From Sipunculus nudus (taxonomy: Eukaryota > Annelida > Sipuncula > Golfingiida > Sipunculidae): a DNA stretch of 64,000 nt. This document shows, one piece after another, positions 1 through 60,719 of this stretch. A program made the translations under genes and the position numbers. The first letter of the stretch is position 1. The number at the start of each line of letters is the position of its first letter. The DNA is taken from assembly GCA_026874595.1 (NCBI GenBank), contig CM049307.1:34142862-34206861 (forward strand), read 5' to 3'. The notes under the pieces are model-generated. The model did no database searches and was not told the DNA's origin. It saw only the letters and a list, made by a program, of their open reading frames with translations.

Positions 1-537
1 ATATTATGCATACACATATATTTTATTATTTTTAAATCATAAATGTTTAAACTGAATTTAAAAGAAAATAATGCCACAACATGGCATCTAGAAGAATATT
101 CCTTGAATCACTATTAAAAAGTTTTGCACATTGGAGTCTTCAGTACATGCTTAATTTTATTCACCAAAATAAAATAAAAGATTCAGTAAATTTGATAAAA
201 TAAAACATCTTTTCAAATAAAGTATACACACTGTTGGTTGAATGAGGGACAAACAATATCATTGTGCTAATTACTATCCCAGTTTTAATTTATTACTGGA
301 ATTAATAGTCAATTTCACACCTGGTGAAGTTTTTACTCTTCTGAAGTAAGGAATTACTTATCTCATGAACATCCACACTTTCTTAGCAATACACCACTCT
401 GTGGACACAATTAAATGTACACTTTAATCATTGTAACCCTGGTGGTAAAATACAAAATCTAAAATGTAGCATAGCCTAGAATAAGAATGAATCAAATACA
501 GAAAATAATATCATTCATCTAGTTTATGCACCATTTT
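1..537. other. intron sequence, no feature seen
   Basis: AT-rich DNA downstream of exon 10. I find no exon-like stretch and no clear repeat. A 16-base G tract follows at 538-553. Confidence 0.5.
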
Positions 538-559
538 GGGGGGGGGGGGGGGGAGTGCA

Positions 560-3280
560 GGGCAGAGGGGAAGCCTGCTGGTAGTGGCCAAGCTGAGCCA
601 AGGCAAGCTGCCTGGGGTGGGTTACATAATGCAAGTGAAGGCTGTACTACTAGTTGGGCTAGATGTAAACAACAATTGACATGGTGTATGAAAACGTGAA
701 TAAAAGCTATTCTTTCGAATCAATTTCTTTGAAATTTCAGATTTTAAAAGATTATATCCTTATGTATATATGCTGAGAAAATTAAATCAACAGTGCCACA
801 AAAGTTGGACAAAATTTAAGGTATTGATTTTTTATTTATGCTAATAACTTGAAAAATTTGCAAAATTCAGATCCAATTTTGGGTAAACAATTGAATCTTG
901 ATTAAATAAAGTTATATTCCTGAAAAAAAGTCTCTAGGTTCAGCAATTCTCATGTTAGGTGAGTAAATATATTTCCTGATTTTTTAAAAATTGCATTATA
1001 TTTTGGCCCATAACTTCAAAATAATACCCAATACTGACCTAATTTTTGGTATGTTCATAGAAGATGTTTGAAAGAATGTGAATACTAAATATGATCAAAA
1101 ACAGATCAGTGGTTTTGATATTAGGCAGCCTTGATGTGTAACAATGGCTTTTTTTATGGAAAACAGAGGTTTTTCCTTAATATCTCGTAGGAAAGAAGTC
1201 CTAATGACCAAATTTTCCGTACGGTAGGAGATTTTGGGGACATCTAAAATTATGCCAACAGCCTGGGGAGCAAAGAGATGTGCACTGAATGACCTACAGT
1301 CATCAAAGTGGACTGCTTGACAATGTAAGGGAATACAACAAGAGCCTCCAAAAAAATTCAATAACTAGCCTAATTTTGCAGCTTTTATTTTCAAATTTCA
1401 GATTTTAACAGATTAAATCCTTATGTGTACATGCTGTGAAAATTAAATCCACAGTACTTACATGAAAACTAGATGTGTTGGAACGACACGAATGCCCCCG
1501 CCTTGGGCAAATTAGAAACATTTGTAAAATTTGGAAAATTTTTTAAGTTCAGGAGGTGTCATATGGTCAAAAGTAGGTCAACAAGGGCAAAATGCAAACT
1601 CGATCTGTAACGGGTCATTATCAAGCAACACACCAAAAATCATGCCAGTATATGCAGGCATTGTGAAAAAAAGTCCATACATGTGCATTTTCCATAAAAA
1701 TTTCTGTCTTTCATGAAATTTTCTATGTTTAGGATCCGTAAAACAATCAAAAGTAGGTCAACCAGGATGAAACGCAAACTCGATCTGTAACTGTCATTAT
1801 CTGCCCACACAAAAAAAATCAGGGTGGTATCTGCAGGCATTGCGAAAAAAAGTCCGTACATGTGTATCTGTCATGAATATTTCTATTTTTCATGAAATTT
1901 TCTAAGTTTAGGAGCCGTAAAACGGTCAAAAGTAGGTCAACCAGGAGGAAACGCGAACTAGATCTGTAACTGGTTTATATCTGCTCACACACCAAATATC
2001 AGGCCAATATCTGCAGGCATTGCGAAAAAAAGTCCGTACATGTGTATCTGTCATGAATATTTCTATTTTTCATGAAATTTTCTAAGTTTAGGAGCCGTAA
2101 AACGGTCAAAAGAAGGTCAACCAGGACGAAAGGCTAACTCAATCTGTAACTGGTCTATATCTGCTCACACACCAAAAATCAGGCCAATATCTGCAGGCAT
2201 TGCGAAAAAAAGTCCGTACATGTGTATCTGTCATGAATATTTCTATTTTTCATGAAATTTTCTAAGTTTAGGAGCCGTAAAACGATTAAAAGTAGGTCAA
2301 CCAGGACGAAACGCGAACTCGATCTGTAACTGGTCTATATCTGCTCACACACCAAAAATCAGGCCAATATCTGCAGGCATTGCGAAAAAAAGTCTGTACA
2401 TGTGTATCTGTCATGAATATTTCTATTTTTCATGAAATTTTCTAAGTTTAGGAGCCGTAAAACGGTCAAAAGTAGGTCAACCGGGACGAAACGCAAACTC
2501 GATCTGTAACTGGTCTATATCTGCCCACACACCAAAATCAGGCCAATATCTGCAGGCATTGCGAAAAAAAGTCCGTACGACTGTTTCATTTCGGAATGAC
2601 GGAATGACGGACATGGGTAAAACTATTTGCCCCGGCCACTTTGTGGCGGGGGCATAAAAACGTGCCGTGGCCAAAGTTGGGCAAAATTTAAGGTACCAAT
2701 TTTATATTTTTGCCAATATTTAAAAAAATTTAACAGATTTTGATCTAATTTTTGGTATACAATTAAATTTTGATTGATTTAAGTTTTATTACTGAAAAAA
2801 AGTCCCGACCTTTAACACTTTTGGTCTTAAGTGACCAAATATCTTCCTGATTTTTTTACAAAGTCCATTATGTTTGGGCCCATAAATTTTTTAAATTAAA
2901 TAATACTGACTTAATTTCTGGCATGTTCATAGGAACTATAAAGAGGAATATTTATGGTAAATACTAAGAAAACCAGATGAGTGGTTTTGATATTAGGCAG
3001 TCCTGAAGTGTAAAAAAAGATTTGTAATAAAACATTGAGGTTTTTCCTTAATATCTAGAAGGAACGAAGTCCTATTGATCCAATTTTCGGCATGGTAGGA
3101 GATTTTGGGGACATCTAACTGTATGCCGAAATTCAGATTCTTAGGTCCAACGGTGTCGAAACGTGCCAGTCTTACGGATGGACATCCAGACGGACGGGCG
3201 GACGGACAGACAGACGGACGGACGACGGACAATGGACCACGACTATAGCTCAGATGACTTATAGTCAGCTGAGCTAAAAA
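560..3280 (+). repeat. family A dispersed repeat, split by a family B insertion
   Basis: Two parts, 560-1470 and 2656-3280, read through once the 1471-2655 element is removed. The same text is continuous near 12860. It contains the recurring phrases GTTGGGCAAAATTTAAGGTA, GATATTAGGCAGTCCTGAAG and GGTTTTTCCTTAATATCT. It ends with an ACGG-rich tract and CAGCTGAGCTAAAAA. Other copies are at 7389-8541, 12640-13486, 14815-15500 and 35480-35985. No coding content is evident. Confidence 0.75.
1471..2655 (+). mobile_element. family B element 1 with about six 180-bp tandem units
   Basis: Begins AGATGTGTTGGAACGACACG, a small hairpin (GTGTyG-GAA-CGACAC), followed by ATGCCCCCGCC. It ends in GGCGGGGGCAT, the inverse. 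Between the ends are 180-bp tandem units, each with AGGAGCCGTAAAACGGTCAA and CAGGCCAATATCTGCAGGCA. The architecture recalls the tandem-repeat-bearing pearl / Helitron-like elements of bivalves; this is an analogy only. The element interrupts a family A repeat. Confidence 0.75.
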
Positions 3281-3418
3281 TTAAAACAAGTGACCAATGG
3301 GTCATGACATTCAGCGGACAAGCATGATATTATAGCCTAACATTCATGACAGGATGGCCTGATATACGAAGGCCAGTGTAATTGCTATAGCTCAGAAGAC
3401 ACACATTCAGCTAAGCTA
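3281..3418 (+). mobile_element. 140-bp miniature element of the GACC...CTGAGC end group
   Basis: Head ACAAGTGACCAATGGGTCAT and tail GCTATAGCTCAG...CAGCTAAGCTAAA match the ends of families A and E and of the 30771 repeat, with only about 80 bp between. It lies directly after a family A tail. Confidence 0.5.
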
Positions 3419-3530
3419 AATGAAGGTGATTAACAAAGTCAATTACACTATCTTTTGCCCTTTAATTTTCATTTATGAAGGACAAAAGTTATTTTTCAAA
3501 ATATATATATTTTAAACATACAGGATGTTA

Positions 3531-56321
<52,791 letters not shown>

Positions 56322-57591: not shown

Positions 57592-58740
57592 CTTTAACTA
57601 TAGGCCTACAACCTATATCGTAAGCGCTGTTTGTTATGACCTCGTATCCTGAATTGCAACACCAGAGGGGACCACTGTATTTTTGTCCAATCAGATGAGA
57701 CCTTGTGCTGGAAGACACAGCCAAGCGAGGAATACACGGAGCCAATCATGTTCATTTCGTTTTGAGTGCATGACAGCTCATCGCCCCGGTAACCGTCTGA
57801 GCAGGCCACAGGCTCAGAGAGAATTGCCCCAGACGTGGTTTGCTTAGGGCCTTCGGCACATAGGATGCCCGGTCGGTGAGCTGTAATTCAAACGAAACGT
57901 ATAACAACAAAGGCTGCGTGCACACCTCGCTGGCTGGTTTCAGTTCTGCAGACACCAGACACATGGCTACGCTAACACATGTAGTTATAATGTAATAATC
58001 CAATCGGTCGATGATGCGAGAATGCAGAGGGAGCGATTAAAATTCGACCGTAAACAGTCATTAAGCGGCGCTTGAAGCGCAGCTATGGGCGGAGCAAGGA
58101 TGCCTGTCGAATGTTTGTTTATTGGCATCTGGTTGGCTGCTTGTCACATCATACGCACGTTTTTTTTTTCAGCGGACAACGAACCGCCATCTGGTGTCTA
58201 AATATATTATAAACGGTCAAAGCTGGCAGCGTGAAAATCAGTTGCTTCTTTAGAAGCACAAGATTTCCGCTGCCTCGGGAGCGTAAATTCTTTCTTGCTA
58301 CCGATACGGAAAGTTATTCCTGATTTATGACCTTTAAATCATTTTTTCATTAGTCCTCTTGCGTTGGACCCCTCATTTTCCTAAATCCTGGTTCCGTCCC
58401 TGCAGCCTGCAATATGTATACTTCCTATATATTTCTAGAGTATTGTTTGATAATTCCTTTTCTTGATCAACTTTCACTGTGTAGACCGACAAGTGTAGGC
58501 CTTTCCATTAAATTTCTTCTCAGCTGATTACCAAGGGTTATGTTTCAAGACATAAAACACAGTGCAATCTGAATGCAGATTCTTCCAGTCAATGGACACT
58601 GACTTCAACATTATCTTTAATTACTTTGAAATTTTACACGCTTCAGTCTCATTGAGTCTACATAGTTAACGTAGTTAATCTTTACACACTTTGTGGTTTT
58701 GCTTTGTCCATTTCTCATCTGTAATGAACATTAATATTTC

Positions 58741-58982: not shown

Positions 58983-60719
58983 CTGTAGTCCGTTCATCCG
59001 GTCGTGTGTATGTTTCTTGAAAATATAACTCATTAAATCATGAATCTCATGAATTTGTCAGGCCATTGCGGGAATGGACCAGAGAAAAAGAAAATGGATT
59101 AGATCCGGTCCCCAGAACGTCATCAAAGAACAGACACTTCTGCACGAATAAACCTGGTTATACATAGGGACCCCCACATGGCGGAGGCTTGGATTAATTG
59201 AATGCAGTTTTCTAGATTAACATGTTTTTCTTTAACGGCCTAATGATACAAAATGCTTTTTGGTTCAACGTCAAACTATAGCTGGTTTTAGCCATCAGTC
59301 GATATTGTAGATCTTCTTAATGATTGAATGTCCATGGTCAGCTTTGGTGATGTGTTAGGTATAAGCCAGAAAGTGACCCCCCCCCCCCTGCGGCAATGAA
59401 ATTTTAGCGGTCTCCTTTGTTTTCTACCTGGATGTATCCTTTAATCTTTTCCGGCTTGGGCCTAAATTCCTCTCGCAATGTCGGGGGGGGGGGGGGGGGG
59501 GGGGTTCCAGGGAATAGTTTTGCTTCAGAAACCAACAAGAAGTAAAAAATTTAATCTTTTAAACCTACATTAATTTCTTTTTTTGAGAGAGAAAGTTCAT
59601 TGGTTAGGTGTACCATACTGTAATGGAAACGGGTGAATCATGTCATATTAATACCAGTCATTTTGGTATTTTATTCATTTTCTAAAGACAGCAGTTCATT
59701 GATATTTGAGGAACATTGCAACACTGTAACACATTTATAATAGCTTGGGGACTGCAGTTATAGCCAACTTTTAATGACAGAATGACATTCACTTTATTAG
59801 CAAAATGTGTGTATGAGGGGGAATAACGTGCATGGATACCCCCCCCCCCCCGGATGAAAAGGGGGGGCATCTACTCCTGTCCCCATCAGTTGTTCCTATG
59901 CCGTCCAGGTGCTCACAAACATATAAAGTTGGCAAACACCCTAAAATCGTCTTTTTATTAGAAACTGCATAATAATATTTTTATGAATTTTAAAACTATT
60001 ATTTTGTATTGGTTTATGAACAAGAACCTTTTTACATCATAACTGCTACGCTCCCGAGGCAGCGGAAATCTTACGCTTCTAAAGAAGCAACTGATTTTCA
60101 CACTGCCAGCTATGACCATTTATGATATATTTAGACACCAGATGGCGGTTCGTTGTCCGCTGAACAAAACGTGCGTATGATGTGAAAAGCAGCCAACCAG
60201 ATGCCAATAAACAAACACGCGACAGGCACCCTGGTTCCGCCAATAGCTGTGCTTCAAGCGCCGTTTGAAGAAAAGTTTACGTTCGAATTTTAATTGCTCC
60301 CTCTGCATTCTCGCATCATCGACCGATTCGATTCTGACAGTATGACTGTGTTAGCGTAGCCATGTGTCTGGTGTCTGCAGAACTGAAACCAGCCAGCGAG
60401 GTGTGCACGCAGCCTTTGTTGTTACGTTTTGTTTGAATTACAGCTCACCGACCGGGCATCCAATGTGCCCAAGTAATCCACGTCTGCGGCAATTCTCTCT
60501 GAGCCTGTGGCCTGTTCAGACAGTTACCGGGGCGATGAGCTGTCACTCAAAACGAAATGAACATGATTGGCTCCGTGTATTCCTCGCTTGGCTGTGTCTT
60601 CCAGCACAAGGTCTCATCTGATTGGACAAAATACAGTGCTCCCCTCTGGTGTAGCAATTCAGGATACGAGGTCATAACAAACAGCGCTTACCATATAGGA
60701 AGTATGCTTATAGTTAAAG

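Follow-up and report, generated by a model that had tools for sequence, protein, structure and literature searches.

What kind of element has short ends that match from copy to copy and an interior that can differ? We asked this of a 64,000-nucleotide stretch of DNA (the window), in which several repeats had been described, in a sequence-only reading, as starting with one short head and finishing with one short tail. In the sense of that reading, the head is ACAAG(G/T)GACC..GGGTCA..CGCTCAGCTG and the tail is ..GTCAGCTGAGCTAAAAA. We found the reported heads at 3286, 7389, and 18187, all on the plus strand. Two more plus-strand heads are present with shifted starts (13643 instead of 13627, and 30761 instead of 30771), and the lone head at 33009 is also there, on the plus strand and diverged. 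As described, there are tails as well, all on the plus strand, which end at 3280, 8544, 13487, 19155, 32268, and 56069. The end motifs are well above the level of shuffled sequence: CGCTCAGCTG with at most one mismatch occurs 12 times in the window, versus 0.78 expected by chance; CAGCTGAGCTAAAAA with at most two mismatches occurs 5 times (0.27 expected); and GACGGACAGACGG with at most one mismatch occurs 4 times (0.02 expected), where two of the four matches overlap and one, at 16752, is not beside a tail. When we compared the inner ends, they were mutually complementary, as had been claimed. The longest perfect complementarity is 9–10 bp in seven of the ten complete elements and is shorter in those at 3286, 7389, and 18187.

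We also searched the entire genome (G000; 1.43 Gb in 153 contigs). We found 16,601 heads (8,160/8,441 on the two strands, using a pattern with some bases left free) and 33,424 exact 17-base tails (16,826/16,598), while the reversed head and tail patterns, which served as controls, had 0 matches genome-wide. The co-occurrence of head and tail had been set beforehand as a refutation test. In the first 2.27 Mb of contig C1 (C1:0-2.27 Mb), there are 58 plus heads; for 36 of them an exact plus tail lies no more than 5 kb downstream, and for 14 no more than 5 kb upstream. With shifted lists, the number of downstream pairings averaged 10.4 and was at most 24 over 20,000 trials, so heads and tails pair far above chance. 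(The genome list of tails, which showed 100 of 100 on the plus strand, is an artefact of how the matches were listed, as minus tails do exist there; orientation was judged without it.)

The repeats with matching ends belong to a known kind of element, the non-autonomous rolling-circle transposons. Specifically, they are very probably HINEs (non-autonomous Helentrons) of a single family. The earlier reading did not recognize a named family, and its direction must be reversed: its "head" is the 3' end, its "tail" the 5' end. On the minus strand, the elements begin with a T-run, AGCTCAGCTGA (the 5' subTIR), a complementary inverted repeat, and a GTCC-type microsatellite. The body follows, with or without a tandem core, and then TCAGCTGAGC or a shorter form of it (the 3' subTIR), the palindrome GACCCATGGGTC, CTTG or CTAG, and a T. 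The HINE substructures are present, in the published order. The subTIRs are in the right places at both ends, but they match over 9–10 bp instead of the 11–15 bp in print, which slightly lowers our confidence in the identification. The inverted repeat beside the 5' subTIR appears as AGCTCAG...CTGAGCT within the 38-bp tail of the group A copies (defined below); compared with its own reverse complement, this 38-bp tail has 10 mismatches. The reported GACGG tract corresponds to the microsatellite: GACG/GACA-type tracts lie just inside several tails, and in some copies they are degenerate. Similarly, GACCCATGGGTC or a variant adjoins the 3' terminus, with mismatches in some copies. Among 19 heads that we inspected, the 3' terminus is CTTGT in 18 and CTAGT in one, and in 17 of the 19 the adjoining host base is again T, as expected for T-rich insertion. 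We also searched 314 kb of sequence for empty sites using the joined flanks of 10 elements, and found no clean site, with two weak matches (71–73%), both for a single element; the query for the element at 3286 had a shortened tail. Among the listed open reading frames, none of at least 110 amino acids lies inside 3286–3418, 7389–8544, 18187–19155, or 30761–32268.

Could the repeats instead be MITEs or foldback elements, mobilized by a cut-and-paste transposase that recognizes their inverted inner ends? Inverted inner ends do exist, but the inverted repeats are subterminal and asymmetric, the palindrome lies outside only one of them, and the microsatellite is on one side only. Given the T-rich junctions and an overall layout that is the HINE plan, we consider this very improbable.

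The interiors were said to share nothing. This does not hold: among 29 oriented pieces, we found three groups of interiors, one of them widespread. Sequence of group A is common to the element at 7389–8544, the bodies before 3280 and before 13487, and the body after 13643. It is also found in loci L001–L004 and L029, as copies of 2.4–3.3 kb, and in one piece of L013. In group E, the element at 18187 resembles L004:138 and L013:4059, and in group N, the element at 30761 resembles L003:2149. Nor did we find the outcome that was named as refuting, that all interiors are decayed copies of one parent. Judging from these comparisons, the elements reflect neither the decay of one parent nor unrelated cargoes; rather, a few types of core are carried on shared ends. 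The idea of one mobilizing machinery with many cargoes is therefore right in substance (common subTIRs, a 3' hairpin, and different cores), except that not all of the interiors are unrelated. Common subTIRs and a 3' hairpin with different cores also describe HINE families from mite, fly, and oyster, according to the accessible portions of PMC4067079 and PMC7492417.

By analogy with the literature, the Rep/helicase of a Helentron, supplied in trans, would nick at the 5' T-run. One strand would be peeled off, stopping at the 3' hairpin, and would be joined into a T-rich target without a target-site duplication. Any DNA between the 5' and 3' signals would ride along, which is why the cores can differ. 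Read-through past the 3' signal would give tandem copies without a 3' end. L004:623-5237 fits this expectation: it is a tandem arrangement of these elements (which we call HINE-1), with a complete copy, directly followed by a copy without its 3' end, and then another tail.

In the rolling-circle sense, with the 5' T-run end on the right, every HINE-1 copy in the window is on the minus strand. The leftmost (1–3280) is a group A body and tail cut off by the left edge of the window, and we saw no head in it. It matches our library of element sequences at 1–1468 and 2656–3280, its tail has no mismatches (at 3243), and it is split by a nested element of another family. It is followed by a mini-element of about 135 bp at 3286–3418 (4 mismatches in the head and 8 in the tail) and a complete group A element of 1156 bp at 7389–8544 (1 mismatch in each). 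A single library match, 12650–15600, merges two elements: a group A body with its tail at 12650–13487 (no mismatches in the tail, at 13450) and, at 13643–15600, a group A element with an intact head (no mismatches) and no tail seen, which aligns to L002:5098-7703 over 1,968 bp at 90%. Comparison of heads and tails indicates that 18187–19155 is a complete group E element (969 bp, with 326-bp core repeats). The group N element at 30761–32268 is complete as well (1508 bp), with a tandem core and the 3' end CTAG. The remaining copies are a diverged head with a body fragment at 33009–33320 (library match 33064–33320), library matches to a group A fragment at 35477–35987 and a group E fragment at 53659–53867, and a tail at 56032–56069 with 12 mismatches over 38 bp and one over the last 17.

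The window contains four further rolling-circle families, HINE-2, HINE-3, K279, and H326, and the five families together cover about 35% of it. There was no BLAST match between library sequences of different families. All of these copies are also on the minus strand in the rolling-circle sense. HINE-2 has a 180-bp core and ends with a hairpin and then CTTG or CTAG. One copy, at 1471–2660 (library match), is nested in the leftmost HINE-1 with the same polarity as its host; the other, at 21807–23560, has the 3' hairpin GTGTCGTTCCGACAC, then CATCTTG (in the rolling-circle sense), with GGCGGGGGCAT and an A-run on its right side. The exact left end of HINE-2 occurs 1,040/1,002 times on the two strands genome-wide. 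K279 is Helitron-like with a 279-bp core, and is found at 10045–11187 (library match and left ends) and, by library match, at 23759–24529, 34137–35270, and, as a fragment, 36271–36442. Of 20 K279 ends that we fetched, 18 have CTAG and then T in the rolling-circle sense; a 7-bp hairpin was measured in one. We had also considered K279 as a TIR element, and dropped this once its left ends were fetched. H326, also Helitron-like, has a 7-bp hairpin: at 29147–29835 it is TGGCACCTGCGGTGCCA, followed by ...TTAG and T, and at 39089–40137 the hairpin is followed by ...CTAG and T. K279 and H326 match the canonical Helitron 3' pattern of a hairpin, CTRR, and T, while their right (5') ends are not clearly defined. 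HINE-3 is represented by library matches to fragments at 15703–16353, 24615–25576, and 36595–36730, by two direct copies at 46995–48825 (library match), and by an element at 42840–44597 whose right end is GCTCACAGGTTCGCTAAAAA and whose left end is undefined, so its class is tentative. In four of the families, the 3' hairpin end is on the left; HINE-3 shows only a T-run end, on the right.

The window also holds a Copia-like retrotransposon remnant at 37403–42484, with RVT_2 only at 41231–42484 and no Pfam match in the other frames scanned there, and a 365-bp inverted pair, 98% identical, at 54470–54834 and 55625–55989.

A HINE is expected to have an autonomous partner; for DINE-1 and the mite HINEs, the partner is described as an endonuclease-encoding Rep/helicase (PMC4067079, in the portion available). 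PF14214, the Helitron-like Rep domain, has 143 matches genome-wide, and some of the frames exceed 2,200 amino acids without a stop. In L037 we matched a Rep model and the domains DUF6570, OTU, and Helitron_like_N. L038 shares 99.7% identity with L037, and downstream of it, in L042, is an Exo_endo_phos domain, which corresponds to the endonuclease described for Helentrons. These domain matches indicate that the genome encodes Helentron-like Rep, OTU, and endonuclease sequence. A scan of two frame pieces, not extending to the 1.3 kb that separates L038 from L042, gave no match to a helicase model. For the partner search we used six Rep loci, within about 1.5 kb, and the flanks of four (one overlapping), for nine distinct loci; in these 9 of the 143, each seen in part, there was no autonomous element with exactly the HINE-1 ends. 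In L044, a K279 copy lies upstream of a Rep gene; we took it to be a separate insertion, as both of its ends are visible. The Helentron-like frames in L041 and L043 have tandem 69-bp (23-residue) repeats near the N terminus.

In the window, 22 of 22 library-matched segments, from five families, are in one orientation; in some cases one element accounts for more than one segment, and these copies were themselves among the sources of the library. On C1 we compared five lists (two HINE-1 head subfamilies, K279, HINE-2, and H326), each limited to its first 100 places. Dissimilar rolling-circle families tend to share a regional polarity over tens of kilobases, which was unexpected. Cross-family counts leave out pairs closer than 1 kb and pairs of T and G heads, which are subfamilies of one family. 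Among the matches listed, 405 of 536 cross-family pairs that are 1–100 kb apart agree: 49/51 at 1–10 kb, 63/80 at 10–25 kb, 104/132 at 25–50 kb, and 189/273 at 50–100 kb. Among the same matches, agreement was 332/537 at 100–200 kb and 499/891 at 200–400 kb, so it decays over about 50–200 kb. Because marker pairs are not independent, the safest figure is from a rotation test, in which strand labels were rotated within families: among the matches listed, 112 of 143 adjacent cross-family pairs 1–50 kb apart agree, versus 71.4 (standard deviation 6.4) under rotation, and 112 was never reached in 5,000 rotations.

Runs of one polarity gave the same picture. The ends of the C1 lists may be biased, since plus matches seem to be placed first within a block, and run counts leave out markers above 13.86 Mb. 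Among the matches listed for C1:0-13.86 Mb, 288 markers form 70 runs, versus 141.6 (standard deviation 8.2) in 10,000 shuffles. After removing markers less than 1 kb apart, the 271 that are left among those listed still form 70 runs (expected 134.0, standard deviation 8.1, minimum 105), and when the initial 4.2 Mb is dropped, 195 listed markers form 61 runs (expected 98.1, standard deviation 7.0, minimum 70). At C1:64,037-1,169,102, all 34 listed markers that are at least 1 kb apart have one polarity, over 1.1 Mb; the density of plus heads there is about 6.5 times the genome mean. There are exceptions on C1: a minus head of another subfamily, at 221,910, interrupts the first 1.17 Mb, which is plus elsewhere; both polarities occur in L003; and a single K279 fragment in L004 is minus. 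Still, the pattern on C1 is well supported.

On other contigs, the pattern is supported, with exceptions and in small samples. We sampled 30 pieces of 5 kb from 10 contigs and added 4 pieces picked because they adjoin positive ones; library copies turned up on 7 contigs. Cross-family pairs less than 10 kb apart (overlapping pairs included) agree in 18 of 24 cases, and pairs 50–120 kb apart agree in 7 of 8. The discordant copies are a plus K279 on C4, a plus HINE-1 on C11, and a minus K279 on C5. Two weak plus heads, in L009 (8 mismatches) and L019 (6 mismatches), were left out of the library counts; they would disagree with minus copies 80–100 kb away on C4 and C7. Among the papers that our literature searches listed, none reports a regional Helitron polarity in its title or the opening of its abstract.

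Do other repeats follow the same polarity? On C1, two sparse controls agree with rolling-circle markers 1–100 kb away in 80 of 160 cases. (The first control motif was dropped as too rare, with 436 exact matches.) One control is a 25-mer from a repeat of about 730 bp, whose class is not established and which is found in the window at 57592–58285 (plus) and 60047–60719 (minus) and at L019:1350-2075; it has 843/804 exact matches on the two strands genome-wide. Its same-strand neighbors number 49 of 99 (49.3 expected), but the close pairs are only 10 of 20. Some comparisons with this control count against our reading: it agrees with rolling-circle markers in 23 of 33 cases within 50 kb and with HINE heads in 15 of 22, which was reached by 8 of 50 rotations. 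Against all five families, it agrees in 36 of 63 cases within 50 kb, and it scatters with distance (17/24 at 10–25 kb and 50/140 at 100–200 kb). The other control has 22 places on C1, and calling it LTR-like is a guess at its class. Among the matches listed, five same-strand copies of it at C3:45985706-46013262 are spaced 6.88–6.89 kb apart, which suggests a tandem array of a 6.9-kb unit with at least five copies.

What sets the polarity? Target composition and local duplication were each rejected as the sole cause. In the parts of the window that the library does not match, runs of at least 5 bases are about equally split (111 of A and 105 of T), and the flanks of a minus run hold 29 and 24. 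This run, at C1:11.486-12.005 Mb, has 15 of 15 K279 copies on the minus strand. When we compared their flanks on one side (about 590 bp each), three groups emerged, {L046, L053}, {L054, L058, L060}, and {L057, L059}; for the other eight, the run contained no match longer than 30 bp, which leaves about 11 distinct flanks. New copies might instead land in, or travel with, older rolling-circle DNA of the same polarity, through nesting, read-through, composites, or local duplication. This does happen: HINE-2 lies in HINE-1 at 1471–2660, and L004:623-5237 is a tandem; nine T heads lie 224–241 bp from a K279 motif, on the identical strand in all nine; rolling-circle sequence is present in four of five fetched flanks from a plus run at 12.60–12.88 Mb; and the flanks shared within the second and third groups above may be unrecognized older elements. 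As the main cause we think it unlikely, because cross-family agreement persists at 25–50 kb (104 of the 132 listed pairs), because the counts leave out pairs closer than 1 kb, and because 12 of 20 K279 flanks have less than 10% similarity to rolling-circle sequence. Weighing duplication, nesting, and the supply of T-runs, we conclude that a regional property, such as the direction of replication or of transcription, is the likelier cause.

Transcription could act if insertion is into transcription-exposed single strands, or if one orientation is selected against within genes. The scale of tens of kilobases would also suit gene bodies, but the 34 of 34 markers of one polarity span a region longer than usual genes, and we are doubtful of this explanation. 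Our preferred reading, which is unproven and to which we give somewhat less than an even chance, is that insertions are oriented by the way replication forks move in the germline: an HUH nuclease needs a single-stranded target, and the lagging-strand template is the most exposed. Polarity agrees across families without sequence similarity and decays over about 50–200 kb. In the minus K279 run described above, which spans 520 kb, 11 of the 15 one-sided flanks have less than 10% similarity to the rolling-circle library, and the flanks are mostly distinct, as described above. Also, the orientation of IS200/IS605 elements follows host replication (PMC5371812), and the authors of the Helraiser study name IS608-like dependence on the lagging strand as one possibility (PMC4778049), in the portions of these papers available. 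Against this reading, GC skew shows no trend. The sign of AT skew matches in the window (+0.029), at 11.49–12.01 Mb (-0.040), and at 12.60–12.88 Mb (+0.026, about one standard error), but it fails in several small pieces (e.g., L001, L004, and L010), and undetected old copies could produce it. The fuller form of the fork reading, in which fork-coupled HUH transposition into single-stranded DNA in the germline set the regional polarity of the five families, over tens to hundreds of kilobases, and old copies form a fossil map of fork direction, we propose as a tentative possibility.

The polarity pattern matters more than the elements themselves, and it is the part that is worth following up. 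PMC4778049 treats as unsettled the way in which a Helitron transposase gains access to single-stranded DNA in the cell, and the accessible portions of the Helraiser papers consider the supply of single strands and lagging-strand synthesis (PMC4778049, PMC5876387). If polarity tracks replication, this question becomes testable by aligning insertions with maps of fork direction, and transposon fossils would record germline replication.

The elements extend a known picture in which satellite-like cores are dispersed across a large genome by Helentrons. The closest likenesses, taken from the accessible portions of the papers, are by description. Cg_HINE from the oyster Crassostrea gigas (PMC7492417) likewise has subTIRs, an inverted repeat beside the 5' subTIR, satellite-like core repeats, a GTCY/GTCC/GTCK microsatellite, a 3' palindrome, and T-rich insertion, and one oyster group has similar flanks with unrelated cores. 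Cg_HINE differs in having subTIRs of 11–12 bp instead of 9–10 bp, and we liken it to our elements by description, not by sequence. It is described as integrating in both orientations and favoring no particular chromosome or segment, and the available part of that account makes no mention of regional polarity. The structural plan of DINE-1 and of the mite HINEs and Helentrons (PMC4067079) is also alike, with subTIRs of 12–15 bp and 13 bp, longer than in this genome. Pearl from bivalves, as described in PMC7492417, is a non-autonomous Helentron with central repeats of about 160 bp, and is similar by description only. The IS200/IS605 elements (PMC5371812) are bacterial, unlike the large eukaryote-like genome studied here, but they share both single-strand HUH transposition and a regional orientation.
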